Shown here one piece after another: positions 8,968 to 35,011 of a DNA stretch of 36,697 nt. This DNA is from an uncultured Geobacteraceae bacterium (lineage in GTDB: Bacteria > Desulfobacterota > Desulfuromonadia > Geobacterales > Pseudopelobacteraceae). The first letter of the stretch is position 1. Each line of letters begins with the position of its first letter. Below the pieces are notes generated by a model. The model made no database searches and was not told the DNA's origin. It was given only the letters and a program-made list of their open reading frames with translations. The stretch lies in assembly GCA_903845365.1 (NCBI GenBank), contig CAIMXI010000270.1, forward strand, positions 1 to 36,697, read 5' to 3'. Both the position numbers and the translations under genes were made by a program.

Positions 8968-10086
8968 TTACTTATAATTGTAGAAAGTGATAATTTTGTT
9001 AACAACCTTCTCAACTTCCATATCTGTCATACGTGGATGAATAGGGATACTCAAAGCATCGGAATTTAGTTGTTCTGAGTTTGGCAAGCGGATATCCATC
9101 TGCCCATACAATGCATTCAAATGAAGTGGATGATAACGCAAGGTTGTATAGATCTGTTCACCCAATAGATAATGCGCTAATTCGTTACGCTTTGGGACAC
9201 GAATACAATAGGTGAAATATGAGTGCTTATTTCCTGATTCAGCTTCTGCTGGAGTAATTAACCCAGGAACAGTAGAAAGCTCTTTTTGATAATTATTCCA
9301 TATTTCATTACGCCGGGCTTGTAAATCATCAATCCGATCAAGTTGAGCTATACCAATACCGGCAGCCATGTTAGTGGGCAGCATCTTGATAAAAGGCTCC
9401 TGAATACAGTATTCCCACCAATTGGCTTTTGTTCCGGCATTACTCACGGCAGAATCAAAACCGGACTTGCCTATTCCGCAGTAGCGCATCACTTTGGCTC
9501 GTTCAATGCGTTCTGACCGTCTTGCAGTAATCCCCCCTCCTTCGCCTACGGTAAGATTTTTCACAGCATCGTAACTAAAGATACCGACATCACCAATTGT
9601 TCCACATGGTTGACCTTTGTATGTACTATCCACTGCATGTGCGGCATCCTCAATCACAGGCAAACCAATATCTAAAATTGGATCCATGTCAACGGCGAGA
9701 CCGGCGTAATGCACCACCATAATCGCAGCGGTTTTTTCTGTAATTTTCGATTCTATGTCCTCACGTCTGACATTCATGGTGGTCAGATCAACATCGCAGA
9801 AAACAGGCCTATGACCTGCTAAAATTACAGCCTGAGCACACGAAACCCAAGTGAAACTCGGCAGGATAACCTCAGAGTTGGGAGGCAGCTCAAGCAGCTT
9901 GACTGCCATGAACAAAGCATTTGAACCACTATCTACCATGGCAAAAGTCTTTAATCCGAACTTTTCCATATATTTATTTTCAAACAGATCGACATTCTTG
10001 CCAAAGCCCATCCACTGGCTACGCATACAAGCTGCAACATTGGCAATTTCCTCTTCGCCGACAAGTGAACCAAATACTGATATCAT
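8968..10086 (-). CDS. DegT/DnrJ/EryC1/StrS aminotransferase (FdtB/QdtB-like)
   Basis: I start at the ATG at 10086, which has a perfect AAGGAG 7 bases upstream, giving 372 residues. The longer frame to 10176 has no support. Motifs are VDSGSNALFMAVKLL (cofactor phosphate site), SFTWVSCAQAVI, VIEDAAHAVDSTYKG (PLP aspartate) and FSYDAVKNLTVGEGGG with the Schiff-base lysine K176. It stands 19 bp after the formyltransferase gene and close to a WxcM/FdtA-like isomerase and RmlC. That set matches the known FdtA-FdtB or QdtA-QdtB route to dTDP-3-amino-3,6-dideoxyhexose, so a 3-keto sugar is the likely substrate. The choice of FdtB over other DegT enzymes is inference from neighbours. Confidence 0.88.
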   Translation of the reverse strand: MISVFGSLVGEEEIANVAACMRSQWMGFGKNVDLFENKYMEKFGLKTFAMVDSGSNALFMAVKLLELPPNSEVILPSFTWVSCAQAVILAGHRPVFCDVDLTTMNVRREDIESKITEKTAAIMVVHYAGLAVDMDPILDIGLPVIEDAAHAVDSTYKGQPCGTIGDVGIFSYDAVKNLTVGEGGGITARRSERIERAKVMRYCGIGKSGFDSAVSNAGTKANWWEYCIQEPFIKMLPTNMAAGIGIAQLDRIDDLQARRNEIWNNYQKELSTVPGLITPAEAESGNKHSYFTYCIRVPKRNELAHYLLGEQIYTTLRYHPLHLNALYGQMDIRLPNSEQLNSDALSIPIHPRMTDMEVEKVVNKIITFYNYK

Positions 10087-10105
10087 TGTAAATCTCCTTT
10101 TAATT

Positions 10106-10918
10106 TTAATATGAAATTTTGAATGGTGTAAAAAACGGTACATCTTCAGCGCAAATGGAAAGTACTTGATCACCAATTTTAATTTTAGGACCTATAAATC
10201 CTGGGAAAGAAATAGCTCGGATAAATCGATTTTGGGTTTCTTTATCCCACGACAAATCCAATATTCCATCGTTTGGCAAACTCTTCGGATAATATGTCTT
10301 GCGTGATTTGTCTTGTTCTGACCCTAGAACTCGATTTTCTAAGATCCTATGTATGTTTGCTTTAAGCATCGAGAAACAATGTGCTGTACTTTTATCATAA
10401 AGGCTTTTTCTTGATTCTAACGGATCAATGTCAAAGAATGATTGAGCGATAATACACCCCGAATCTATACCTTCTTCAACATAATGCATAGTTACTGCAA
10501 ACTCCTTTTCATCATTCCATATGGCCCACATTTCTGGCCAATAACCACCATACCTTGGTAGTGGGGCGTAATGAACATTTACAATTCCAAGTTTGTTATC
10601 AAAAATGTGCAGCCAATCACTCTTGAAGATCATGTTATTCTGTAGACTTAGTACAATATCAGCATCAAACTGTATTACACTGGACAATACCTTAGGTGTA
10701 TTCAGCTTAAGAGTTTGAAGTGTAGGTATGTCGTATTTCCTTGCTCTGGCTAATAGTGATGGGAAAATAGTGTCTTGACCTTTGTCATCTTGCCTAGCTA
10801 TACACATTACAACATCAAATTCGTTTTCAATTAAATAGTCAAGCATCATACAAGCCTGTTCATGGCCTCCGACTATAATTATTTTCTTATTTCTCAAGTT
10901 TTCACTTAATTTGTCCAT
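10106..10918 (-). CDS. Sugar N-formyltransferase (methionyl-tRNA formyltransferase fold)
   Basis: In the 270-residue protein, KKIIIVGGHEQACMMLDYL opens the fold. The catalytic triad of the family is visible as N114 and H116 in NVHYAPLPRYGGYWP and D152 in GIDSGCII. This is the Asn-His-Asp arrangement that transfers formyl from N10-formyltetrahydrofolate to an amine. A C-terminal domain (about 200-270) replaces the tRNA-binding domain of Fmt. Known relatives formylate dTDP-Qui3N, dTDP-Fuc3N or dTDP-Qui4N. The ATG lies inside the end of the upstream gene (17-bp overlap) with AGGGG about 8 bases upstream. Next to an FdtB-like aminotransferase, the likely product is a dTDP-3-formamido-3,6-dideoxyhexose. 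Confidence 0.85.
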   Translation of the reverse strand: MDKLSENLRNKKIIIVGGHEQACMMLDYLIENEFDVVMCIARQDDKGQDTIFPSLLARARKYDIPTLQTLKLNTPKVLSSVIQFDADIVLSLQNNMIFKSDWLHIFDNKLGIVNVHYAPLPRYGGYWPEMWAIWNDEKEFAVTMHYVEEGIDSGCIIAQSFFDIDPLESRKSLYDKSTAHCFSMLKANIHRILENRVLGSEQDKSRKTYYPKSLPNDGILDLSWDKETQNRFIRAISFPGFIGPKIKIGDQVLSICAEDVPFFTPFKISY

Positions 10919-16072: not shown

Positions 16073-16654
16073 TTAGTCCTTATCTATGCAACCGCATAGG
16101 CTTTGCATAACTATATGACCAAAGATGGAGTGTATATCTTCTGATATTTGCATATCATCTACATTTGCCCACACATTATGCTGCGCGATATTTTTAAGTT
16201 TGCCACCATTGTAACCAGATAACCCCAAGGTCACCGCACAATTCTCGTTAGCATAATTCACAGCTCTCACTACATTCTCAGAGTTGCCACTCCCCGAAAT
16301 TGCAATGACGAGATCACATGGCTCGAGAATATTTTTAAGCTGTTCAATAAAAATATCCTGAAATGAAATATCGTTACCGTATGCCATTACCAGGCCAATA
16401 TTGTCGACAAGGCAGCGACCACGAAACGGACGCTTTCCTGCTATGAAAACACTTTTGTTCCAATCGGTAATAAAATGAAGGGCTGTAATAGAACTTCCGC
16501 CATTGCCTAAAGTAATTATCTGCTTGCCATTAAACCATGCGTTGCGTATCAAACCTATAGCACTATCTATGCTCTGCATATCAAGCGAGGCTAATACGCC
16601 TGACAAACGATCAAAGTATTTAGAAGATACGCCGCAAAATTGTTTGGTATTCAA
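16073..16654 (-). CDS. gmhA: Sedoheptulose-7-phosphate isomerase (GmhA-like SIS protein)
   Basis: The 193-residue SIS-domain isomerase has TLGNGGSSITALHFITDWNK (phosphate loop), VMAYGNDISFQDIFIEQL and AISGSGNSENVVRAVNYA. The C-terminal SEDIHSIFGHIVMQSLCG helix holds the usual catalytic His region. GmhA converts sedoheptulose 7-phosphate to D-glycero-D-manno-heptose 7-phosphate. The start codon is TTG at 16654, supported by AAGGAG six bases upstream. It is followed by AsnB and preceded by HddA and the HddC-GmhB fusion, so the whole GDP-heptose pathway is contiguous. Confidence 0.9.
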   Translation of the reverse strand: MNTKQFCGVSSKYFDRLSGVLASLDMQSIDSAIGLIRNAWFNGKQIITLGNGGSSITALHFITDWNKSVFIAGKRPFRGRCLVDNIGLVMAYGNDISFQDIFIEQLKNILEPCDLVIAISGSGNSENVVRAVNYANENCAVTLGLSGYNGGKLKNIAQHNVWANVDDMQISEDIHSIFGHIVMQSLCGCIDKD

Positions 16655-16664
16655 TGCTGACTCC

Positions 16665-17648
16665 TTATTGATGATAGAAAATTATACGGCTTCCAAGAGG
16701 TTCAAACTTAATCTCTATAGGACGCAAAATTGAAAGTGATTCTCTAATTGCAGCGTGCGTTGAAAGTGGTGCATAAAACATTAAAAAGCCACCAGCACCG
16801 GCACCTAATATTTTTCCGCCTATTGCCCCTGCCTTAATCGCCGATTCGTACCATTCATCTATCTCTGATGTGCTAATCGCTTCGCTCAGGCTCTTCTTTA
16901 GAATCCAGTTTTCGTGAAGAATCTCCCCAAATACATGAGTGTTGTCCTTCTGAATCTCGCGTTTAAGATCGTATGTGAAGCTAACCATACGCTTTAAAAC
17001 TTCCTGTTTTAGCTCATCATTAGATACCTCTTCTGACTGACGGGCTAATAGAGTAGATGCATTTCGAGATATGCCTGTATAAAACACTAAAATATTTTGC
17101 TCAATCTCTAAAAGGGTTTCTCGTTTGCAAATAATTGGCGATACTTCTACTGTATCATCACGATTAAACTCAATCAGGTTGAAACCACCGAATGCTGCGG
17201 CGTACTGATCCTGCTTGCCAATTGGCGCTTCGCACCGCTCAATTTCGATGTAACAACTGTCTGCACCGAGCTGTTCGCTTGATACATAGCGCCCCATAAA
17301 CGCACTAAGAGCATGAAGCAATCCGACTGTAAAGGAACTGGATGATCCCAAACCTGTACCCTTTGAAGGAATATCTGCAATAGTAGTGATCTCAATACCA
17401 CCGGAAAGACCCAGATGTTCCATTGAAGCACGCACTAAACGATGCTCAATCTCTGCCACGCAATTTACTTCTTCTGTCTTTGAGTAAGCAATACGAATTC
17501 CATCATCAAACTTTTTATTAACGTTTACGAATACGTACTTATCAATTGCAGTGCTTATCACAGCCCCACCATATTTTTGGTAAAAGGCCGGCATATCACT
17601 ACCACCACCAGTAAAACTCATTCTTAGAGGTGTTCTGCTGATAATCAT
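16665..17648 (-). CDS. hddA: D-glycero-D-manno-heptose 7-phosphate kinase (HddA)
   Basis: I start at the ATG at 17648, because MIISRTPLRMSFTGGGSDMP is the standard N-terminus of this GHMP kinase family; the frame extends further upstream without support. The ATP loop is PSKGTGLGSSSS at residues 94-105. APIGKQDQYAAAFGGFN and LGAGAGGFLMFY are the other GHMP motifs. The 327-residue length fits HddA. The enzyme phosphorylates heptose 7-phosphate at the anomeric carbon to the 1,7-bisphosphate in the GDP-D-alpha-heptose branch. It is 17 bp downstream of the HddC-GmhB fusion gene and 10 bp upstream of gmhA. Confidence 0.92.
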   Translation of the reverse strand: MIISRTPLRMSFTGGGSDMPAFYQKYGGAVISTAIDKYVFVNVNKKFDDGIRIAYSKTEEVNCVAEIEHRLVRASMEHLGLSGGIEITTIADIPSKGTGLGSSSSFTVGLLHALSAFMGRYVSSEQLGADSCYIEIERCEAPIGKQDQYAAAFGGFNLIEFNRDDTVEVSPIICKRETLLEIEQNILVFYTGISRNASTLLARQSEEVSNDELKQEVLKRMVSFTYDLKREIQKDNTHVFGEILHENWILKKSLSEAISTSEIDEWYESAIKAGAIGGKILGAGAGGFLMFYAPLSTHAAIRESLSILRPIEIKFEPLGSRIIFYHQ

Positions 17649-17665: not shown

Positions 17666-19576
17666 TTACGCAGTAGATTTTGAAGGAAATAACACCCTTA
17701 CAGAGTTGCTCCCCGTCGCAGCAATCCAAGGCACTTCCTCTGTCAGGCGTTCCAGATACACTGATTCCGAGGCTTCCAAAGAAAAACCGCGCATTATGTA
17801 TTCACTAATCACACGCTGTTTGCGAACATTTTCATCAATTTCTACAAAAAATTTATGACGATTAGAGTATAACTCGGCAAAGTGAAGTGCTACAACACCC
17901 TCAAAAATCACAATATCATCAGGAGAAATATCCAACGCTTGGACATTTGGTATATGCTCCCGACATGATTTTCTATAACTTGGCAAGCTTAGTTGAGTAA
18001 CTTTCGATTGTGGCTTGTTTATGGATATTATTGCATCGTTAAGGTGCGTCACATCATGGCGTTCCAGAACACAAGTACCACGATCAACCTCATTCAGTAG
18101 CCAGCGATCAGTTGCTATAATATGGCAATTCAAACCCTGATCTTCAAAAATGTCACGCATAACGCTGGCACAGGAACTCTTGCCGCTACGAGATTGCCCA
18201 CCGATAAAAACCATATCACCAGGATGTATGTCATGAATCATTGATTTAATGCTTTGAATAAGTATCGGGTATGTATCCAGTATTAAGGAAACTCCCGCAG
18301 CAAGATCCGGCACAATGAAATCTGGTATAACCCAGTGTTTTTCATCTAAACCTCCATAGCCAGTTTCAACGAGAATAGATTTGAGACCTGCGTTACGTGC
18401 AGTTTGAATATCAACGGTTGAATCACCAATCATCCATGATCGTTCAGGTGCAATATTAAGTTCCTCAATAGCAGTATTGATCATGCCTGTACTAGGCTTG
18501 CGACAATTACATTTTATTTTCAGTTCCGGTACTTCCCCATGAAAACCTTTATCCGGATGATGGGGGCAATAATAGATGCGATCAACAAAGGCTCCGTTAC
18601 GGCCAAGCAGTGTCTCAAGCTTATTATGTATCTGCCGCATCGATTGTAATGAACACTCGCCTCTGGCAATTACCGGCTGATTCGTAACAATGCACACACG
18701 ATATTCCGATTGATTCAGTCTTCGGATTGCAGGTTCCACCCCAGGAAAGAGTTCCAACTGATCAACCGAGTTCAAATGATTCACTTCTCGGTTGATAGTT
18801 CCGTCACGATCTATGAAAACAGCCATTTGTTTGTGATTAAGTGTTGCTCTCTCGATTTTACCCGATTCAAAATCAGCACAAACCTTATCAATGCGTGTCG
18901 GAGTGCCGCAGTCCTTAATATATTCCGGGCTGTTATATCCTCTCAGTGCAAACCCTTTTTTAATCATTTCGGGGAAAAGATGTTTCGCAAAATCAAGTAC
19001 TCCACCGGAAAAACCGCGCCAAGGCTCAAGGTTTGATTTTTGAATCCAGTAAAGTGCCGCATTTACAAGGTTTGGGTAATACAAGTCTGAATCATGTGGA
19101 TAAGGATAAAAGCCGGTTACGTACCCTCGATCATCAATTTCTACCAAATCCGAGTCATGTGGGTGGTCGTTAGGGTGTAAAAAGAGTGTTCCTGCTATTC
19201 CATCAACAGCAGAATGGTAGTTATAGAAGCGCTGGAGGTCAACATCCAGCATTGTATCACCGTACATCAGGAGAAACTCGGGCTCAAGGTGATCAAGTAT
19301 CTGTAAGACTGCGCCTGCGGTACCACACGGCTCACCATCGTCAATGCACTGGATATCGAGTCCCCAGTTATTCTTGCTGCGGCAAAACTCAACAATTGCA
19401 TCTGCCCGATAGTTTACAAGAATAATTACCTGCTCAAAACCATAGCGTTTGGCAAGCAAAATCTGTCTTTCGAGTAACGGCACGCCGCACACATCAATTA
19501 GTGGTTTGGGCAGATTACCCAAACGTTCACGAAGGCGTGTACCTTTACCGCCGGCAAGAATAACGAGCTGTTTCAT
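17666..19576 (-). CDS. Three-domain fusion: HddC nucleotidyltransferase, GmhB phosphatase and a P-loop kinase-like domain
   Basis: This 636-residue protein joins two pathway enzymes and an extra domain. Residues 1-240 are a sugar-1-phosphate nucleotidyltransferase (LAGGKGTRLRERLGNLPKPL, MYGDTMLDVD, CGTAGAV), matching HddC. Residues 250-430 are a HAD phosphatase of the GmhB type: FIDRDGT with D256 and D258, TNQPVIARG, GDSTVDIQTARNAG, and the zinc knuckle CPHH/CNCRK (C337, H339, C356, C358). Residues 450-636 form a P-loop domain with GQSRSGKSS (Walker A, G460-S467) and IVIFEGVVALHF as probable Walker B, resembling uridine/nucleoside kinases. The first two domains would perform the phosphatase and guanylyltransferase steps of GDP-heptose synthesis. 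The role of the third is unknown. The ATG overlaps the upstream SDR stop by 4 bases. Confidence 0.9.
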   Translation of the reverse strand: MKQLVILAGGKGTRLRERLGNLPKPLIDVCGVPLLERQILLAKRYGFEQVIILVNYRADAIVEFCRSKNNWGLDIQCIDDGEPCGTAGAVLQILDHLEPEFLLMYGDTMLDVDLQRFYNYHSAVDGIAGTLFLHPNDHPHDSDLVEIDDRGYVTGFYPYPHDSDLYYPNLVNAALYWIQKSNLEPWRGFSGGVLDFAKHLFPEMIKKGFALRGYNSPEYIKDCGTPTRIDKVCADFESGKIERATLNHKQMAVFIDRDGTINREVNHLNSVDQLELFPGVEPAIRRLNQSEYRVCIVTNQPVIARGECSLQSMRQIHNKLETLLGRNGAFVDRIYYCPHHPDKGFHGEVPELKIKCNCRKPSTGMINTAIEELNIAPERSWMIGDSTVDIQTARNAGLKSILVETGYGGLDEKHWVIPDFIVPDLAAGVSLILDTYPILIQSIKSMIHDIHPGDMVFIGGQSRSGKSSCASVMRDIFEDQGLNCHIIATDRWLLNEVDRGTCVLERHDVTHLNDAIISINKPQSKVTQLSLPSYRKSCREHIPNVQALDISPDDIVIFEGVVALHFAELYSNRHKFFVEIDENVRKQRVISEYIMRGFSLEASESVYLERLTEEVPWIAATGSNSVRVLFPSKSTA

Positions 19577-20559
19577 TGTTTAGCCGCTTCCTGCGCTACA
19601 ATCTGGCGAATGGCCTTACGAACAGCATCTTGCGAACCAAGCCTGGGTGCCCAGCCAAGCGCTTTCAACTTATCCACAGAATAGGAAAAGCGTGGCACAT
19701 CACCGACCCACCCTTTATCGCCTTCACCATAGCTTATCGATGCACCAGTCGAAGTTGCCTGGACTATTTCTTCAGCAATATAACGAACAGTGACACCTTC
19801 GTCACCAGCCCCAATATTAAATACTGAACGCTTTTCCTCAGAGTGTTCACGAATAAAGAGCATTGCATCGATAAGGTCTTCGGCATGCAGATAGCCCTTC
19901 TGCTGAGTACCATTTCCAAGTACATCAAGATTATCGGGCGTTTTTTTCAGTTTCCGGACGAAGTCGAGCATAACTCCATGAGTAGCAGGAATGCCAATTA
20001 CATTCGGGAAGCGGAAAATAAAAGCACGGTGCAGATTATTCTCGGCAGCCGCACTGATCGCAGCTTCTGATGCAAGTTTCATTGCCCCATAATTGGAGAT
20101 TGGCAATAGCGGGCCTATGTTTTCAACGAGCAATTGCTCACCAAGATCCCCATAAATTGCAGAGCTTGAGGCAAACGCCAAAACCTTAACACCTAACTCC
20201 TTCATGACTTCTAAGGTGTTAAAGGTGGTCATGAAGGTATCTTGCAGATCAACGTTCGCATTATACACGCCAGCGGGAATATCCGAATTAGCGGCCAAAT
20301 GCCAAACTTCCGTGATTGGCTCTCGTGCGTGAAAAGCTGCAAATACCTCCTGGTATTCAGTCAAATTGGTCATTTCTACCGTGCTGAAGGAGAAATGTGG
20401 ATTATCACTCAGTCCTGACAAGTTATCGAGTCTTCCACGGCAAAGATTATCAACTCCAAAAACCGTATTTCCACGATTGAGCAGTACTTCGGCAAGATTG
20501 CAACCTATGAATCCGGCAACTCCTGTAATTAAAATAGAAATGGGTGTACCCCCTAACAT
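19573..20559 (-). CDS. NAD-dependent sugar epimerase/dehydratase (extended SDR)
   Basis: The 328-residue extended SDR has ITGVAGFIGCN (NAD-binding GxxGxxG), HLAANSDIP, FASSSAIYG, and YGAMK with Y157 and K161 of the YxxxK dyad. FRFPNVIGIP, GYLHAEDLIDAM and NIGAGDEGVTVRYIAEEI also match the UDP-glucose 4-epimerase-like group. In HddA/HddC loci similar SDRs act on GDP- or UDP-sugars, so it may modify the heptose or a hexose. The annotated ATG at 20559 has no ribosome site. A strong AGGGGGT lies just inside the gene, upstream of an ATT codon at 20541 that begins the first beta strand, so an unusual AUU start cannot be excluded. Confidence 0.85.
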   Translation of the reverse strand: MLGGTPISILITGVAGFIGCNLAEVLLNRGNTVFGVDNLCRGRLDNLSGLSDNPHFSFSTVEMTNLTEYQEVFAAFHAREPITEVWHLAANSDIPAGVYNANVDLQDTFMTTFNTLEVMKELGVKVLAFASSSAIYGDLGEQLLVENIGPLLPISNYGAMKLASEAAISAAAENNLHRAFIFRFPNVIGIPATHGVMLDFVRKLKKTPDNLDVLGNGTQQKGYLHAEDLIDAMLFIREHSEEKRSVFNIGAGDEGVTVRYIAEEIVQATSTGASISYGEGDKGWVGDVPRFSYSVDKLKALGWAPRLGSQDAVRKAIRQIVAQEAAKQ

Positions 20560-25239: not shown

Positions 25240-26022
25240 TTACGGTGTCAGCGTGGGTATCATAGAGTTCTCAATCGCACTTTTGAGGCCAAGCAGAGCA
25301 GCCTCGAAAAGAGAGGCATCATCCAGACTCCATGCAGTTTTGTCAACACTTTTGATCTTCTCAATTATCTTATTGATGGCATCAATCAAAGCCGCTGGAT
25401 CGTTTATATCTTTCTTTTGCCTGGTACCCTTAACCTTCTGTTGTTTCGCCTTGTAGCTGTTATATGCGGTCATCATCCCGCGTACCTGCTTCTTACGGGC
25501 AATGTCAATCAGAGTTGATCTGGATATCTGACGATCACCACGACATTCATCCCGAATCTCCTGCGGAAGCTTATTGAGCGTTAAAATATCACCAACAGTC
25601 GTGCGAGCCTTGCCGACAATAACACCCAACTGTTCTTGTGTATAACTCTGTTCCATCATCAGCCGCTGGAGTGCTTCAGCCTCTTCAACAGCAGTCAGAT
25701 CCTGACGCAACAGGTTTTCCACCAGCGCAACTTCAGCATAGTTGGTATCAGCAATATATACTGCTGGAACTGTAACCAGACCAGCAGCGCGGGCAGCAGT
25801 AACGCGGCGTTCGCCTGCAACAATTATCAGATTTCCTTCAGCATCAGCCCTAAAAAGTATAGGCTGCAGCACACCAAGTTTGGCAACCGAAGCTGTGATA
25901 TCTTCCAGACCCACGGCATCAATAACCTTGCGCGGCTGCGCTGGATCAGCCTGCAGATCGTTAGGAGAAAGTTCGTAAAGTTTCCCTTTTTCGTAGATGA
26001 CGCTTGTTTCTGTGGCTGCCAT
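25240..26022 (-). CDS. ParB/Spo0J-like DNA-binding protein (solitary)
   Basis: The 260-residue protein has a ParB N-terminal domain: LSPNDLQADPAQPRKV, then VLQPILFRADAEGNLIIVAGERRVTAARAAG. The arginine box is GERRVTAARAAG at 70-81, the CTP-binding signature of the family. ENLLRQDLTAVEEAEALQRL follows. A helix-turn-helix at about 127-150 is YTQEQLGVIVGKARTTVGDIL. The C-terminal region from 195 (KGTRQKKDINDPAAL) does not look like the ParB dimer domain. No parA and no parS-like palindrome is seen nearby, so a chromosomal or plasmid partition role is not supported; an accessory regulator is possible. GAGGGG precedes the ATG. After the TAA the same frame stays open for 17 sense codons (IVAWLKGKTFDDVRIRK) to a TGA at 25186, suggesting a recent premature stop. 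Confidence 0.82.
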   Translation of the reverse strand: MAATETSVIYEKGKLYELSPNDLQADPAQPRKVIDAVGLEDITASVAKLGVLQPILFRADAEGNLIIVAGERRVTAARAAGLVTVPAVYIADTNYAEVALVENLLRQDLTAVEEAEALQRLMMEQSYTQEQLGVIVGKARTTVGDILTLNKLPQEIRDECRGDRQISRSTLIDIARKKQVRGMMTAYNSYKAKQQKVKGTRQKKDINDPAALIDAINKIIEKIKSVDKTAWSLDDASLFEAALLGLKSAIENSMIPTLTP

Positions 26023-29947: not shown

Positions 29948-32900
29948 TCAGTTTATTTGAGTCTTTACAGTTTCTTTTAGTCTTTTTAATGTCAATTCTT
30001 TTCTCACGTCACTTGCAAAAGTATCACGTGCAATTCCGGGTATTTTTGCATGGGTTTCAGCATATTTACCTCTAATTTGTTCTAAAAGAGCAATTGCCTG
30101 ATCCAAAGAATCACTGCCAAGTTTATTCTCGTAACAATAAACCCGTATATATGTGAAAATAATATAATCAACTATTGAGGAATGAGAATCTATAATAAGT
30201 TGCTTTACGATATCTCTGGATGCTGCAAAGTCTAGTTTCATTAGGAGCATTGACAAGAAACATTTTTTAAGCGTGTCTTTCTCAATTTGAGCTAAATCTT
30301 TAACGGTATTTTTTAGCTTTGCGTTACCCATATGATCCGACATATGAAGAATTACCGAAACAGGGAGTACCCGGTAAATAATTTCTTGCGATTTCTTGAC
30401 TAGTTGTTCCGTTCGTTCGTTTTTGATTTCTTCTATTCTCTCTCCTAGCAGAATTTCATAAATTTCACGAATAGATATATCATGAATAAAAAGCTTGAAG
30501 TCTTCAATGGAAGCCCACATTGTACCTATATAATAATCAACGCATTTACTAATATATACTTTCCTATCCTCTGCGGTTAATTCTCTTGTGTTTCTTAATA
30601 TGTCAGCCTCTAACGTTATAAGTCTTATAGCTTTTTCTAGATCATCGTCAGCATCTTTACTCATAGAAGTATTCTCAAGTATGTCAACATTTTGTAAATA
30701 TATTTGATCGGAAACTTCATCTTTTATCTCAACGTGATTTTTTTCTCTGATTTCACTTTTTACTTGTTTTGTTAACAATACTATTGATTCCTGGAAATGA
30801 TTCATATCGTGAATCGACTCGTGCTGTTGACCTAAAATTTCGCGCATTGCAAATGACGTGCGCCGATCAATTTCAGCAAGCAATAGATGATCGTCACGGA
30901 GCAAACCGGCCTTATATGCTATGGCCGTTGAAAATTTGAGGTAGTCTTCTCTTGACATTAGCATCGTATCAAATACTTTATCTTTTTGCATACCCCTTGC
31001 TATGAAATAATTTAACCAAAATCTGAATTTGAATGTAATTTTTCTGTTGGTATTTGCAAGAATCTGTTTCGAGAAAAATGGATTAAATGTAGATTCCCGT
31101 GGCATATCTTCATCAAACCGCTTAAAATAATGCAATTTAGCTTCCTCATATTTATCTATCGTCCACTCATAGGTATCACTTTCGACCATGGTTTTAGCGA
31201 TGTAAATTAGAAAGCTCTCTTTTTCTTTAAAATCCAGTTCGTGGTCAATTTCTTCATCTGAGAGTTTTTCAAGTATTTCTTCGAAGTAGTTTTCTATAAG
31301 GTATGCTTCATTTCGGATATTCTTCTGACTTTTATCTCTAAACAATACACCGATAAATAACGTCACGGTCATTGGTGTGACTGGCACTTGTAACTGCTTG
31401 AAATAATACACTATTTGTTTGAGCATCTTATCAACGTCATATTTGCCAAATATGTTCCATTTATGAAGTAGCTCCCTAATTTTTCCTGTATTCATAGGCT
31501 GAATATAATAGTTGTTAGCGCCTAACGTTTCATTAAGTGATATAGATTCCTGCTTAAATGCTTGTGATATACGGTCCGATACCGTTATAATATATCTGCA
31601 AGTTGGATATAATTTATAAATTTCCGTAAGTACGATCTTTCTTTTTTCACGTGAAGTATCATCAACGTCGTCATAATCATCAATCAAGAATAATACATTT
31701 CCTTCTTTTAGATATTTTTCCATTTCAGGTCTTGTCACAAGACTATCAATTGCTTTACTAGCTACAACCGATATCGATGAAGGATTATTTTTAGGAATTT
31801 CTCTAAAATTTATAAATACCGGTAATTTGCTGGCTAAATTACCATCATTATTTAACACTTGTTCCTTGATATAATTAAGAAGTGTAGTCTTGCCAAATTC
31901 TTTCCCGCCAAAAAACAATATGTTTTCCAATGTCGCTAATAGATCCGTTAACTTAAATGTTTCGAGTTTTGGTTCACTTTTATCATATCTTGATTTATTT
32001 GTTATAACTGGTTCGACAAATATCTCGCTCAGTTTAACTGAATCGATATTTGTGAGAGGAACGATTACTTTATCGCTTTTTCCGGTGTCTATTCTCAATA
32101 CAGATCTAATTTTACTAAGATCTATTAATTTATGCGTCTCAGGATTTGAGCAAATAAAATTATTGCATTTAACAATGCCACTTTCACATTTCTCCGTTTC
32201 TTGGTCAAACTCTCCTCTTATCTCGTACCATTTTCTCAAATACACAGTTAGGTCTAATTCTTTCAGATCAATGCTGAGTAACGAGTATCCGTTCTTAACC
32301 CGACCAGAGTACATTGATGCGCAAGTTGATATGTATAGACTGCCGAGCAATGATTGGACATAATTAAAATTTGAATCGTGAATATGCCCGTGACAAAATA
32401 GGTTGAATTTTTTTGCCATTACACTTTGTAACTGCTGCTTATCCCATTCAGCGAACATGTCATAACCATGATGAGATAGTACGATCTTAATATCACATGT
32501 CGATATTCCTTTTGATGCTTCTTCAAGGATTTCACTACCTATGACTATCATGCCTTGATCGTTACGGTGATCTGCTGATCTCCAAGCGCTATTTAAGGCA
32601 ACAATTCCAACCTTTAAATTATTCTTAATAACTATATATGTATCATAAAAATATGTCGAAATAATCCTGTTATTATTTTGAAGAACGTTTTTAAAATTAT
32701 CAAATGCAGATAGTTTTTGAGTTAGCATTCTATAACTAAGTCCAGTTTTATTACTTTCAACATCTAATATAAACCTGTGTAACGCATCTACATCGTTCAA
32801 CTGTGCATCAAGTCCGGTTTCATATGTTCTATCTATATATGTTCGGTCAACTTCGTGATTCCCTGCAACATAAATAAAGTCCGATTCAGCCAATTCGTAC

Positions 32901-33130
32901 TTTTCTAGCAATGGAATAATAAATTCTGACAAAGCAAGGTCATATTCGCAGACGGAGTTTTCACCTTTTTTAATCAAATCACCTGTAAATAAGACCAAAT
33001 CTAGCGTTAGGGCATTGTCAAGTATCAATTTGTCAACATCCTTGAAAAAAGCTTCTCTTACTTTTTGTATTCTTTTAAGGTCGCTTGTATTCATATGTAA
33101 ATCTGCAATATGCAGAGCATTTATTCGCAT
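29948..33130 (-). CDS. Metallophosphoesterase-NACHT (STAND) NTPase fusion
   Basis: The protein is 1060 residues long. Residues 1-300 are a calcineurin-like phosphoesterase with all metal-binding motifs: HIADLHMN (D10, H12), FTGDL (D51), AGNHE (N91, H92), LSHHG (H220, H221) and CHGHIH (H247, H249). Residues 395-560 are a NACHT-type P-loop ATPase: FFGGKEFGKTTLL (Walker A, G408-T415), VLFLIDDYDDVDD (Walker B, D484/D485) and YIITVSDR (sensor). The rest, 560-1060, is helical and may be a sensor region. STAND proteins use the C-terminal part to detect a trigger and then oligomerise; here the phosphoesterase would be the effector, cutting nucleic acid or nucleotides. GGAGG precedes the ATG. It is the last gene of the caspase cassette, 19 bp after the small membrane protein. 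An antiphage role is inferred from architecture. Confidence 0.88.
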   Translation of the reverse strand: MRINALHIADLHMNTSDLKRIQKVREAFFKDVDKLILDNALTLDLVLFTGDLIKKGENSVCEYDLALSEFIIPLLEKYELAESDFIYVAGNHEVDRTYIDRTYETGLDAQLNDVDALHRFILDVESNKTGLSYRMLTQKLSAFDNFKNVLQNNNRIISTYFYDTYIVIKNNLKVGIVALNSAWRSADHRNDQGMIVIGSEILEEASKGISTCDIKIVLSHHGYDMFAEWDKQQLQSVMAKKFNLFCHGHIHDSNFNYVQSLLGSLYISTCASMYSGRVKNGYSLLSIDLKELDLTVYLRKWYEIRGEFDQETEKCESGIVKCNNFICSNPETHKLIDLSKIRSVLRIDTGKSDKVIVPLTNIDSVKLSEIFVEPVITNKSRYDKSEPKLETFKLTDLLATLENILFFGGKEFGKTTLLNYIKEQVLNNDGNLASKLPVFINFREIPKNNPSSISVVASKAIDSLVTRPEMEKYLKEGNVLFLIDDYDDVDDTSREKRKIVLTEIYKLYPTCRYIITVSDRISQAFKQESISLNETLGANNYYIQPMNTGKIRELLHKWNIFGKYDVDKMLKQIVYYFKQLQVPVTPMTVTLFIGVLFRDKSQKNIRNEAYLIENYFEEILEKLSDEEIDHELDFKEKESFLIYIAKTMVESDTYEWTIDKYEEAKLHYFKRFDEDMPRESTFNPFFSKQILANTNRKITFKFRFWLNYFIARGMQKDKVFDTMLMSREDYLKFSTAIAYKAGLLRDDHLLLAEIDRRTSFAMREILGQQHESIHDMNHFQESIVLLTKQVKSEIREKNHVEIKDEVSDQIYLQNVDILENTSMSKDADDDLEKAIRLITLEADILRNTRELTAEDRKVYISKCVDYYIGTMWASIEDFKLFIHDISIREIYEILLGERIEEIKNERTEQLVKKSQEIIYRVLPVSVILHMSDHMGNAKLKNTVKDLAQIEKDTLKKCFLSMLLMKLDFAASRDIVKQLIIDSHSSIVDYIIFTYIRVYCYENKLGSDSLDQAIALLEQIRGKYAETHAKIPGIARDTFASDVRKELTLKRLKETVKTQIN

Positions 33131-33476: not shown

Positions 33477-34265
33477 TTATTCCTCTTTTTTTTTGTGGCT
33501 CTTTTCTAGCTTCGCTAATATAGATGGTGCGAATCGTTCACTCATACCAGCTACAAAACCTAAAGCAATTAATGCAATTTCTTTCTGATCTATTCTAGAA
33601 AACACTGGTAAGAACAATTCAGCTCGAACTAACATCGAAACTAAAAGAGCGGAAAGAGCTCCCGCAATTACTCGATATGAACTCTCAATTTCATGTAACG
33701 CTTTACCGCTTAAGCAGTTTAGATTCTCTTTTCCCATACGGAATATAATTGACATGAGAGCGCCTAGTGCGCCTGTTACCATGCATAGACAGGTGTTGAA
33801 AAAGACGGCACCAAAAATATTAGTGCTGATGTCTCGGAAAGTCCAAAGGATAATCCCCACGCTTAATATCAAAGCTGCTGTTTGACCTGCTCTAGCCAGA
33901 TACCACTGGCGTGACAACTCTTTTCCTCTATCTATGAGGTAGCTTTCAGCGTGATTAAGGATTTCAGCAGCTTTTTTGTAGTCATGTGCCAAACTGCGCG
34001 CAAGGGATTCCCCCAATAACCTCTTAAAGCTTAGCAGGCTTGTTTCTGAAAGATGAGTTGTTGGCTTACATTCCTGAAGTGCTACACCATTAAGTATTTC
34101 TTTATGTTTTTCGGGTTTTTCATGACCCTTTTCGTCATATTCTGCGGTGGTAATCCAATCCAAATCGTTTTCGTTGTCTATAAATACGATAAAACCCTGA
34201 CTATCTAAAATTAAATGCCTAAGGTTGAGAACACCCCATTTTTCTTGATCATAGTCAACGCTCAT
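33477..34265 (-). CDS. Four-helix membrane protein of the caspase-NACHT cassette
   Basis: The 262-residue protein has a soluble N-terminal domain of about 125 residues (WGVLNLRHLILDSQGFIVF and onward to a helical HDYKKAAEILNHAESYL). Four predicted helices follow at about 127-144, 150-175, 198-213 and 230-247, and a lysine-rich tail ends the protein. GFVAGMSERFAPSIL in the last helix is a motif seen in several bacterial membrane proteins of unknown role. It starts 11 bp after the caspase stop with AGAGGT as ribosome site, so the two are tightly coupled. It could be the membrane target cleaved by the protease, or its anchor. No function is established. Confidence 0.8.
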   Translation of the reverse strand: MSVDYDQEKWGVLNLRHLILDSQGFIVFIDNENDLDWITTAEYDEKGHEKPEKHKEILNGVALQECKPTTHLSETSLLSFKRLLGESLARSLAHDYKKAAEILNHAESYLIDRGKELSRQWYLARAGQTAALILSVGIILWTFRDISTNIFGAVFFNTCLCMVTGALGALMSIIFRMGKENLNCLSGKALHEIESSYRVIAGALSALLVSMLVRAELFLPVFSRIDQKEIALIALGFVAGMSERFAPSILAKLEKSHKKKEE

Positions 34266-34276
34266 AGATTACCTCT

Positions 34277-35011
34277 TCAAATAATAGCAAATGGATAAAA
34301 GTGCATTCGCCTCCCTGCATTAAATACAGGCAGTTGCGGAGCATTTCTTTTGTATGTCATATCCTTAGCTCGCTCAAAAGCTTTGTCTATTTTGACTATT
34401 CCGTACCCGCAGCTATTTGAGTGTGAGAAGTTGCTGGGGGCCTTTAAAAGCTCTTGTGTAAAAACGCCTCCGGTCCCATCATCACCAGCTGATTGGTCAA
34501 TACTACAGGAGTAGGCAACAATTCTTCCCTCAGGGTTTGACATAACGCAATCATCAAAAATTTTTCTATAGTCGATGTGTGCTTTTTTTGCACTTTCGCA
34601 TACTGCCGCTTTCTTCATTTCGCGCATTTCATCTTTGTGGATAAGCACTAAGTTCCTGCAAATATCTGCGATCACTAAATGTCTTTTATTTTTAGGATTT
34701 ATGCTGCTTATAGAAATTTTTTCTTTTTCACTTAAATACATAAGCGTCTCGTCAATTCCCTTTCCTCTAACGTGCTCTCCATGCCCCGAACAAGTAATGA
34801 GAATATAATCAATATTACTGGTCATTTCTAATTGACGATAAATTTCTGTCGAATTCTGATCAATAATTGTAATAATCTCATTTGGTCTCCAAGCACCACC
34901 GCAATCTGAGAGAAGGAAGTTGCGGATGTCGTTTATGTCCGTAACGACTCCAGGCAGGGCTGGTGTGACACCTGGTGCTCCAATAAGAATTGCTTTTCTT
35001 GTAATGGCCAT
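34277..35011 (-). CDS. Caspase-like cysteine protease (peptidase C14 family)
   Basis: The 244-residue protein matches the caspase/metacaspase p20 fold. RKAILIGAPGVTPALPGVVTDINDI is strand 1 and the linker. DYILITCSGHGEH carries the catalytic His77. RHLVIADICRN carries the catalytic Cys118 after the strand, where metacaspases have D-x-C. RIVAYSCSIDQSAGDDGTGGVFTQELL provides the S1-pocket region and the last strands. It lacks a prodomain or separate sensor domain, so it must be activated by a partner, plausibly the NACHT protein in the same operon. AGGAG stands about 10 bases before the ATG. Family knowledge: caspase-like proteases act in several antiphage systems by cutting proteins or membrane effectors. 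Confidence 0.88.
   Translation of the reverse strand: MAITRKAILIGAPGVTPALPGVVTDINDIRNFLLSDCGGAWRPNEIITIIDQNSTEIYRQLEMTSNIDYILITCSGHGEHVRGKGIDETLMYLSEKEKISISSINPKNKRHLVIADICRNLVLIHKDEMREMKKAAVCESAKKAHIDYRKIFDDCVMSNPEGRIVAYSCSIDQSAGDDGTGGVFTQELLKAPSNFSHSNSCGYGIVKIDKAFERAKDMTYKRNAPQLPVFNAGRRMHFYPFAII

Follow-up and report, generated by a model that had tools for sequence, protein, structure and literature searches.

Why should a protein that joins two predicted enzymes of GDP-heptose synthesis carry a third, kinase-like domain, and what might that domain do? The question is raised by a gene on contig CAIMXI010000270.1 (GenBank assembly GCA_903845365.1) of an uncultured Geobacteraceae bacterium; the whole stretch analyzed, 36,697 nucleotides, is called the window here. 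The gene encodes a nucleotidyltransferase domain, a HAD-type phosphatase domain and a C-terminal P-loop domain with the fold shared by phosphoribulokinase (PRK) and uridine kinase. Judging from its sequence relatives, a known enzyme pair has here gained a genuine third domain that recurs and is under selection; this domain is probably an active small-molecule kinase of heptose metabolism. Our best overall explanation, which we hold tentatively, is that this kinase is tied to heptose phosphates and is perhaps a 7-kinase.

Nucleotidyltransferase and phosphatase domains

In Pfam searches with the whole protein, PF00483 (NTP_transferase) matches residues 5-180 (3.6e-18, 66.5 bits, cut-off 21.2) and HAD families match within residues 256-426 (for example Hydrolase_like, 4.3e-18, at 358-426). 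In NCBIfam, residues 3-184 fall near the HddC model NF049965 (69.5 bits, below its equivalog cut-off of 300), while residues 250-431 are nearest to heptose-bisphosphate 7-phosphatase NF006506 (156.3 bits, below its cut-off of 178); the GmhB model TIGR00213 gives 115.4 bits, below 149.6, and the HAD-IIIA model TIGR01662 gives 123.2 bits, above 44.6. The phosphatase has the GmhB features, namely the HAD catalytic Asp pair, zinc-type Cys/His residues and a CRKP motif, and D256, D258, C337, H339, C356, C358, R359, K360 and D385 are invariant in all 33 aligned rows of the domain. The predicted full chain is compact (predicted local distance difference test, pLDDT, 93.6; predicted template modeling score, pTM, 0.92). 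It matches HddC of Yersinia pseudotuberculosis (5xhw) with a template modeling (TM) score of 0.86, and E. coli GmhB (2gmw) with up to 0.90, both normalized to the target. Because the folds match but the equivalog scores lie below the cut-offs, the two parts are named HddC-like and GmhB-like. With that wording, the claim of the first-pass annotation that the two activities share one chain is upheld by Pfam, NCBIfam and fold comparison. Its other suggestion, that the fusion might channel the phosphatase and nucleotidyl-transfer steps, gains or loses nothing from the compactness of the predicted chain.

Fold, motifs and family of the third domain

That annotation had also placed a P-loop domain with a uridine-kinase-like Walker A after the phosphatase, and membership of the uridine kinase superfamily is borne out. 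PF00485 gives 23.2 bits at residues 458-619 of the whole protein and 28.1 bits (2.1e-6) with the C-terminal domain alone, both above its cut-off of 22, and it matches 22 of 24 member domains at E up to 0.1. An AlphaFold2 model of the domain, built from an alignment of 20 sequences (pLDDT 93.4, pTM 0.90), has as its top structural match the pantothenate kinase of M. tuberculosis (Z 19.9, 2.6 Å over 194 residues); human uridine-cytidine kinase 2 (UCK2; Z 19.2, 2.6 Å over 174 residues) and 3c8u, a putative fructose-transport-system kinase (Z 18.8, 2.6 Å over 187 residues), are also matched. Walker A (GxxxxGK[ST]) and [E/D]G are present in 25/25 three-domain proteins, and D-x-W in 24/25. The first-pass annotation had allowed for a loss of nucleotide binding, against which the Walker A sequences in 25/25 speak. 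Ten residues (G460, G465, K466, D490, W492, Y534, G560, R588, R610 and E614) are invariant in an alignment of 24 kinase domains; L029, a locus with a decayed third domain described below, was left out of the domain alignments and of the kinase tree. D490 of the D-x-W motif falls in HMMER alignments at what we take to be the position of the catalytic Asp in the uridine kinase family. The conserved R499 was considered as a phosphate-binding residue and dropped, a uridine kinase having Arg at the aligned place.

The domain belongs to this superfamily without being, by score and motif tests, a uridine kinase. One explanation for its presence would be a nucleoside kinase, acting on uridine, cytidine or guanosine and so providing the transferase with nucleotide, and it is true that uridine kinases are the NCBIfam models matching most members (24/24 at E up to 0.1) and that UCK2 is among the nearest folds. 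However, the uridine kinase models TIGR00235 and NF004018 give the window's domain 28.6 bits against cut-offs of 220.3 and 180. The motifs N[FY]DxP and YDFxxH, presumably nucleoside-site motifs of uridine kinases, occur in 0/25 three-domain proteins as against 5/5 stand-alone uridine kinases among our outgroups (and 0/3 other outgroups). In the kinase tree the 24 intact domains form one clade against eight uridine kinase/PRK outgroups, a small set drawn from weaker matches of the same searches (support 98/94, 96% of 200 bootstrap trees), and this branch stands apart from the uridine kinases used. The domain moreover persists in proteins whose nucleotidyltransferase signatures are gone (see below), and we regard a nucleoside kinase as improbable. 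Like the PF00485 superfamily of uridine-cytidine kinase, PRK and type I pantothenate kinase, the window's domain and its relatives have the common fold (best Z 17-20), Walker A, the catalytic-Asp position and [E/D]G, but they make up a clade of their own that lacks the nucleoside-binding motifs.

The best sequence match to the family profile in the PDB is 1rz3, a possible uridine kinase from Bacillus (Geobacillus) stearothermophilus (2.2e-17, 66.3 bits). It has SRSGK in its Walker A, as does the window's domain, but it is a stand-alone protein of 201 amino acids and its score is far under the 182-235 bits of family members. Profile searches that scored 8-11 candidates per genome found no stand-alone member of the subfamily in the window's phylum or in that of the genome holding locus L040, a depth at which absence is unproven. 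In the former, 3/395 genomes match (two three-domain proteins and one uridine-kinase-like frame of 68.6 bits), and in the latter 5/296 (that of L040, plus four matches of 68-74 bits whose frames have 212-556 amino acids). All strong matches (≥180 bits) in these surveys and in two further profile searches lie within frames of 617-737 amino acids, with none standing alone. A 3-sequence profile matched 11 of the 395 phylum genomes at 1e-6, three with three-domain proteins and eight with other uridine kinase/PRK-like proteins.

Distribution and history

A scan of named genomes confirmed at least 589 loci, and the best 80 were kept. Among these best 80 of at least 589 loci, 20 have the third domain (ten each in Pseudomonadota and Bacteroidota) and 60 are two-domain fusions without it, a common form; the ranking favors three-domain proteins, and 20/80 is not a frequency. 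The two-domain fusions have the same order as the window protein over residues 1-434, and in many of them (L027 is one) the same operon partners, but they lack its C-terminal kinase. The fetched loci of the 20 three-domain proteins include a GHMP kinase in 17 cases and GmhA in 15, and an operon-type SDR gene adjoins the fusion in nine (9/10 Pseudomonadota, 0/10 Bacteroidota); these counts are lowered by L039 and L045, which stop at contig ends. In the genome of L037 a GHMP kinase that shares 63% identity with the one at L040 is encoded elsewhere. Neighbors beyond the operon partners vary, and the neighborhood gave no clue to the substrate.

The kinase domain matches 56 of 72,556 plasmid records (55 Rhizobium, 1 Methylovirgula), and all 12 copies inspected are full-length three-domain frames. 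In the annotated plasmid records inspected, the only name given to these proteins is "HAD-IIIA family hydrolase", so that two of their domains go unmentioned. A scan of viral contigs gave 109 pattern matches, none of them confirmed. Twenty phage records match, all over less than 80% of the protein; of ten among the matches listed, four span both the nucleotidyltransferase and HAD parts.

Within its own class the window's genome is the sole bearer of the three-domain protein (1/277 genomes), and a sample of the phylum has it in 3/395, the window's own included; its copy was therefore probably acquired. The window has 41.0% G+C, and seven other stretches of the same genome have 43-56%. Rarity of this kind (1/117 relatives and 1/277 class genomes, in both cases the window's own) is what could be expected of a chance fusion or an annotation artefact without selected function. 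Against this, the same domain order recurs in Pseudomonadota and Bacteroidota, and the kinase domains form one clade, are under purifying selection in Rhizobium and retain their motifs even where the first domain has decayed; we consider a chance fusion highly improbable. A random fusion found once, for which the first-pass annotation had allowed, is excluded, since the same architecture is present in 20 of the best 80 loci, in 56 plasmid records and in two further genomes of the phylum, with kinase domains of a single clade.

The kinase tree and a tree of the nucleotidyltransferase-HAD part show the same two groups, with the window placed with Pseudomonadota, and L012 and L013 with Bacteroidota. 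Of the 60 two-domain loci, 56 are in the latter tree; in the other four (L042, L050, L051 and L060) the frames end 13-18 amino acids past the HAD domain. L010, from Rhizobium, has a very long branch; the kinase tree puts it on the Bacteroidota side, the other tree in neither group. The simplest reading of these trees is one old fusion, mostly inherited together with its partners, and several losses (L027, L034, L035 and others); exchange of the three-domain gene between lineages may also have taken place. The three-domain operon of L022 groups with that of the window; this locus is from a metagenome-assembled genome (MAG) titled Bordetella parapertussis, a label that is unverified.

Selection and naturally decayed copies

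In Rhizobium the median ratio of nonsynonymous to synonymous substitution rates (dN/dS) is 0.110 for the nucleotidyltransferase, 0.101 for HAD and 0.186 for the kinase domain (11 sequences, 55 pairs), and 0.042 for the GHMP kinase (10 sequences, 45 pairs). On these sequence comparisons, the kinase domain is under purifying selection in Rhizobium.

Loci with a decayed first domain allow the domains to be considered separately. The family holding the Nitrospirillum amazonense locus was searched, giving 11 places in 10/82 genomes. In six genomes around Nitrospirillum (L143-L148) the nucleotidyltransferase signatures GGxGTR and PK[PA] are gone, but all six retain DxDG, CRKP, Walker A, D-x-W and EG. 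A seventh copy of the group, L149, which is not counted among the six, begins at residue 35 at a contig end and has intact phosphatase and kinase motifs. GGxGTR is missed also in L040 and L046 and in 4/56 two-domain rows. For L054, which is the same gene as L143, counting PK[PA] over the whole nucleotidyltransferase-HAD part was uninformative, and the count was redone on the first 40 residues; this protein matches no nucleotidyltransferase family at 1e-10 and scores 163 bits for GmhB.

Identity among the six is 0.67 in the nucleotidyltransferase, 0.82 in HAD and 0.76 in the kinase domain, and the median dN/dS values are 0.526, 0.284 and 0.331 (15 pairs). The ratio of 0.526 alone is no proof of relaxed selection, because three intact but more distant members of the family, taken as a control, gave 0.493, 0.407 and 0.589 (3 pairs, dS 1.1-1.2). 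What counts in this group is the loss of signatures together with the altered rate order, the kinase being fastest where the domains are intact and the nucleotidyltransferase fastest where its signatures are gone. As the kinase domain is kept in these proteins, its role is, on sequence grounds, apparently independent of nucleotidyl transfer.

The neighborhood of L143-L148 is conserved; the stretches read have no SDR or GHMP gene, and GmhA is adjacent in one. One genome (G1025) has both a signature-less copy and an intact copy in a full operon (loci L153, the intact copy, and L157). The genome of L054 (G656) encodes HldE and HldD, both over their family cut-offs, 11-13 kb from the fusion gene, and the fusion is its one GmhB-type place; a search for HddA there gave no match, and the GmhA match is weak (29.7 bits). 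The phosphatase of this fusion may serve the ADP-heptose route, the kinase having been retained along with it. The opposite kind of decay is seen in a Methylocystis MAG (L029:5894-7672), where the nucleotidyltransferase has GGxGTR but the third domain is shortened to 160 amino acids and lacks D-x-W. Decayed-nucleotidyltransferase orthologues on one side and one decayed-kinase locus on the other allow the role of each domain to be studied by itself.

A possible role for the kinase

The canonical route, as given in an excerpt of PMC10680097, runs from sedoheptulose 7-phosphate through GmhA to heptose 7-phosphate, HddA to the 1,7-bisphosphate, GmhB to the 1-phosphate and HddC to GDP-heptose. The same four activities (isomerase, GHMP 1-kinase, 7-phosphatase and nucleotidyltransferase) are predicted in a single operon of the window, in the order SDR, fusion, HddA-like GHMP kinase and GmhA-like isomerase, and such complete GDP-heptose-type operons occur likewise in relatives. 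The start of the fusion gene overlaps the end of the SDR gene by ATGA. The top match of the GHMP kinase is NF049969 (169.3 bits, below the cut-off of 600), and the isomerase scores 84.5 bits with NF010546 (cut-off 276) and 79.1 bits with TIGR00441 (cut-off 209.45). Compared with the canonical system, the window fuses phosphatase to nucleotidyltransferase and adds the kinase domain; every component scores below its curated equivalog cut-off, so that the nucleotide and the sugar are putative.

Since all four pathway activities are predicted without the third domain, the kinase would add something to them. Members of the PRK/uridine kinase superfamily phosphorylate mainly primary hydroxyls. The primary hydroxyls in the heptose pathway are O7 of heptose and O1 and O7 of sedoheptulose, and we infer that the kinase domain would phosphorylate a primary hydroxyl of a metabolite linked to heptose phosphates. 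That the position is O7 of free D-glycero-D-manno-heptose or of sedoheptulose is our first choice, although a doubtful one. Were it so, the kinase would convert either free sugar to its 7-phosphate, which would enter at GmhA and HddA (or HldE) as a salvage or side entry, and the GmhB domain would later strip the 7-phosphate that the kinase had placed. Because the Nitrospirillum-group proteins keep phosphatase and kinase without nucleotidyltransferase signatures, such a kinase could serve both heptose routes. The most specific form of this proposal, which we put forward with considerable doubt, is a PRK-fold kinase dedicated to heptose or sedoheptulose. It would be a so far unrecognized entry or salvage step that feeds the GDP- and ADP-heptose routes alike, and it would share a chain with the phosphatase by which its phosphate is later taken off.

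Sugar kinases fused to nucleotidyltransferases have precedents in FKP (L-fucokinase/GDP-fucose pyrophosphorylase), as described in excerpts of the literature, and in HldE, according to its family description. PfkB-type matches were seen in the HldE of G656. The kinase of FKP is of GHMP type and that of HldE of PfkB type, neither having the PRK fold. Among the listed titles and abstract openings of the open-licence PMC literature, we found no paper on the three-domain architecture. Both heptose routes, to GDP- and to ADP-heptose, are treated as closed pathways that start with sedoheptulose 7-phosphate. The presence in Pseudomonadota and Bacteroidota of a conserved kinase on the same chain as the phosphatase and nucleotidyltransferase implies that heptose activation has an additional input, output or point of control.

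An active kinase might instead act on the glycan made here, modifying its product or a co-substrate, and not feed the heptose pathway; if it phosphorylated a free or an activated sugar, for example, the polysaccharide would come to carry a phosphate. Its patchy presence in otherwise alike operons suits an optional decoration, and the operon of the window is surrounded by genes of a surface-polysaccharide cluster, among them a flippase, glycosyltransferases, aminotransferases and a formyltransferase. The six Nitrospirillum-group genomes speak against this, keeping the kinase in chains that should make no GDP-heptose, because the nucleotidyltransferase signatures are gone and the stretches read contain neither SDR nor GHMP genes. 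We think such decoration of the glycan unlikely.

Several observations weigh against a kinase acting on heptose phosphates. A kinase and a phosphatase working on the same position within one chain would form a futile cycle unless separated or regulated. Two-domain relatives exist in the same operon (L027, for example, has 64% identity to the window protein over residues 1-434), which means that the core pathway can do without the kinase, and on the nucleotidyltransferase-HAD tree the label "three domains" changes eight times, at least seven of the changes being forced by well supported branches. In Rhizobium the kinase domain evolves faster than both of its partners, the ratio of 0.526 in the decayed group is ambiguous as said above, and L029 has lost part of the domain beside a nucleotidyltransferase with GGxGTR. 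Retention of the third domain without a working nucleotidyltransferase could mean that it merely stabilizes the phosphatase.

This last point leads to the alternative of a non-catalytic third domain, an ATP sensor or structural part that stabilizes or regulates the phosphatase. It is favored by the compact full-chain model (pTM 0.92), by the domain being dispensable in two-domain relatives, by the one decayed copy (L029) and by the joint retention of phosphatase and third domain when the nucleotidyltransferase decays. We judge it unlikely as well, because Walker A in 25/25, D-x-W in 24/25, [E/D]G in 25/25 and ten invariant residues in 24/24 exceed what a scaffold should need. An active kinase tied to heptose phosphates thus stays our preferred, if tentative, explanation.

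Features of the window

Coordinates of the operon and of the parts of the fusion are collected in Table 1. An Rfam scan of the window gave no matches.

Table 1. The heptose-type operon of the window and the parts of its three-domain fusion (aa, amino acids; ORF, open reading frame).
Feature	Coordinates	Strand	Evidence
Three-domain fusion gene, 636 aa plus stop, ATG start	17666..19576	-	Open ORF; Pfam, NCBIfam
Nucleotidyltransferase domain (aa 1-240), HddC-like, with GGKGTR and PKP motifs	18857..19576	-	PF00483, fold match 5xhw
HAD-IIIA phosphatase domain (aa 250-434), GmhB-like	18275..18829	-	NCBIfam, alignment, fold match 2gmw
C-terminal PRK/uridine-kinase-fold domain plus linker (aa 436-636; fold about 441-636)	17669..18271	-	Pfam, AlphaFold2 model
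Walker A GQSRSGKS (aa 460-467)	18176..18199	-	Sequence, alignment
D-x-W motif (aa 490-492)	18101..18109	-	D and W invariant in 24/24 aligned domains
SDR (epimerase/dehydratase) gene	19573..20559	-	PF01370, 145.9 bits
GHMP kinase gene, HddA-like; likely ATG at 17648 (longest ORF from 17729)	16665..17648	-	NF049969
SIS-domain isomerase gene, GmhA-like	16073..16654	-	NF010546, TIGR00441

The surface-polysaccharide cluster around the operon also includes an initiating sugar transferase. A DegT aminotransferase gene adjoins a gene with a formyltransferase domain at 8968-10918 (-), which suggests an N-formylated sugar in the polysaccharide. A 3-hydroxyacyl-CoA dehydrogenase-type gene (PF02737, PF00725; 2901-3815, -) adjoins a PglD-like gene within the sugar cluster. 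A ParB-like gene at 25240-26022 (-) lies between the polysaccharide cluster and possible defense genes. These encode a metallophosphoesterase-NACHT protein (29948-33130, -), which matches the PADLOC candidate defense model PDC-S60 with 334 bits, an unassigned product (33477-34265, -) and a caspase-like C14 peptidase (34277-35011, -). From the metallophosphoesterase-NACHT and C14 peptidase genes, an anti-phage defense island adjoining the polysaccharide cluster is possible.

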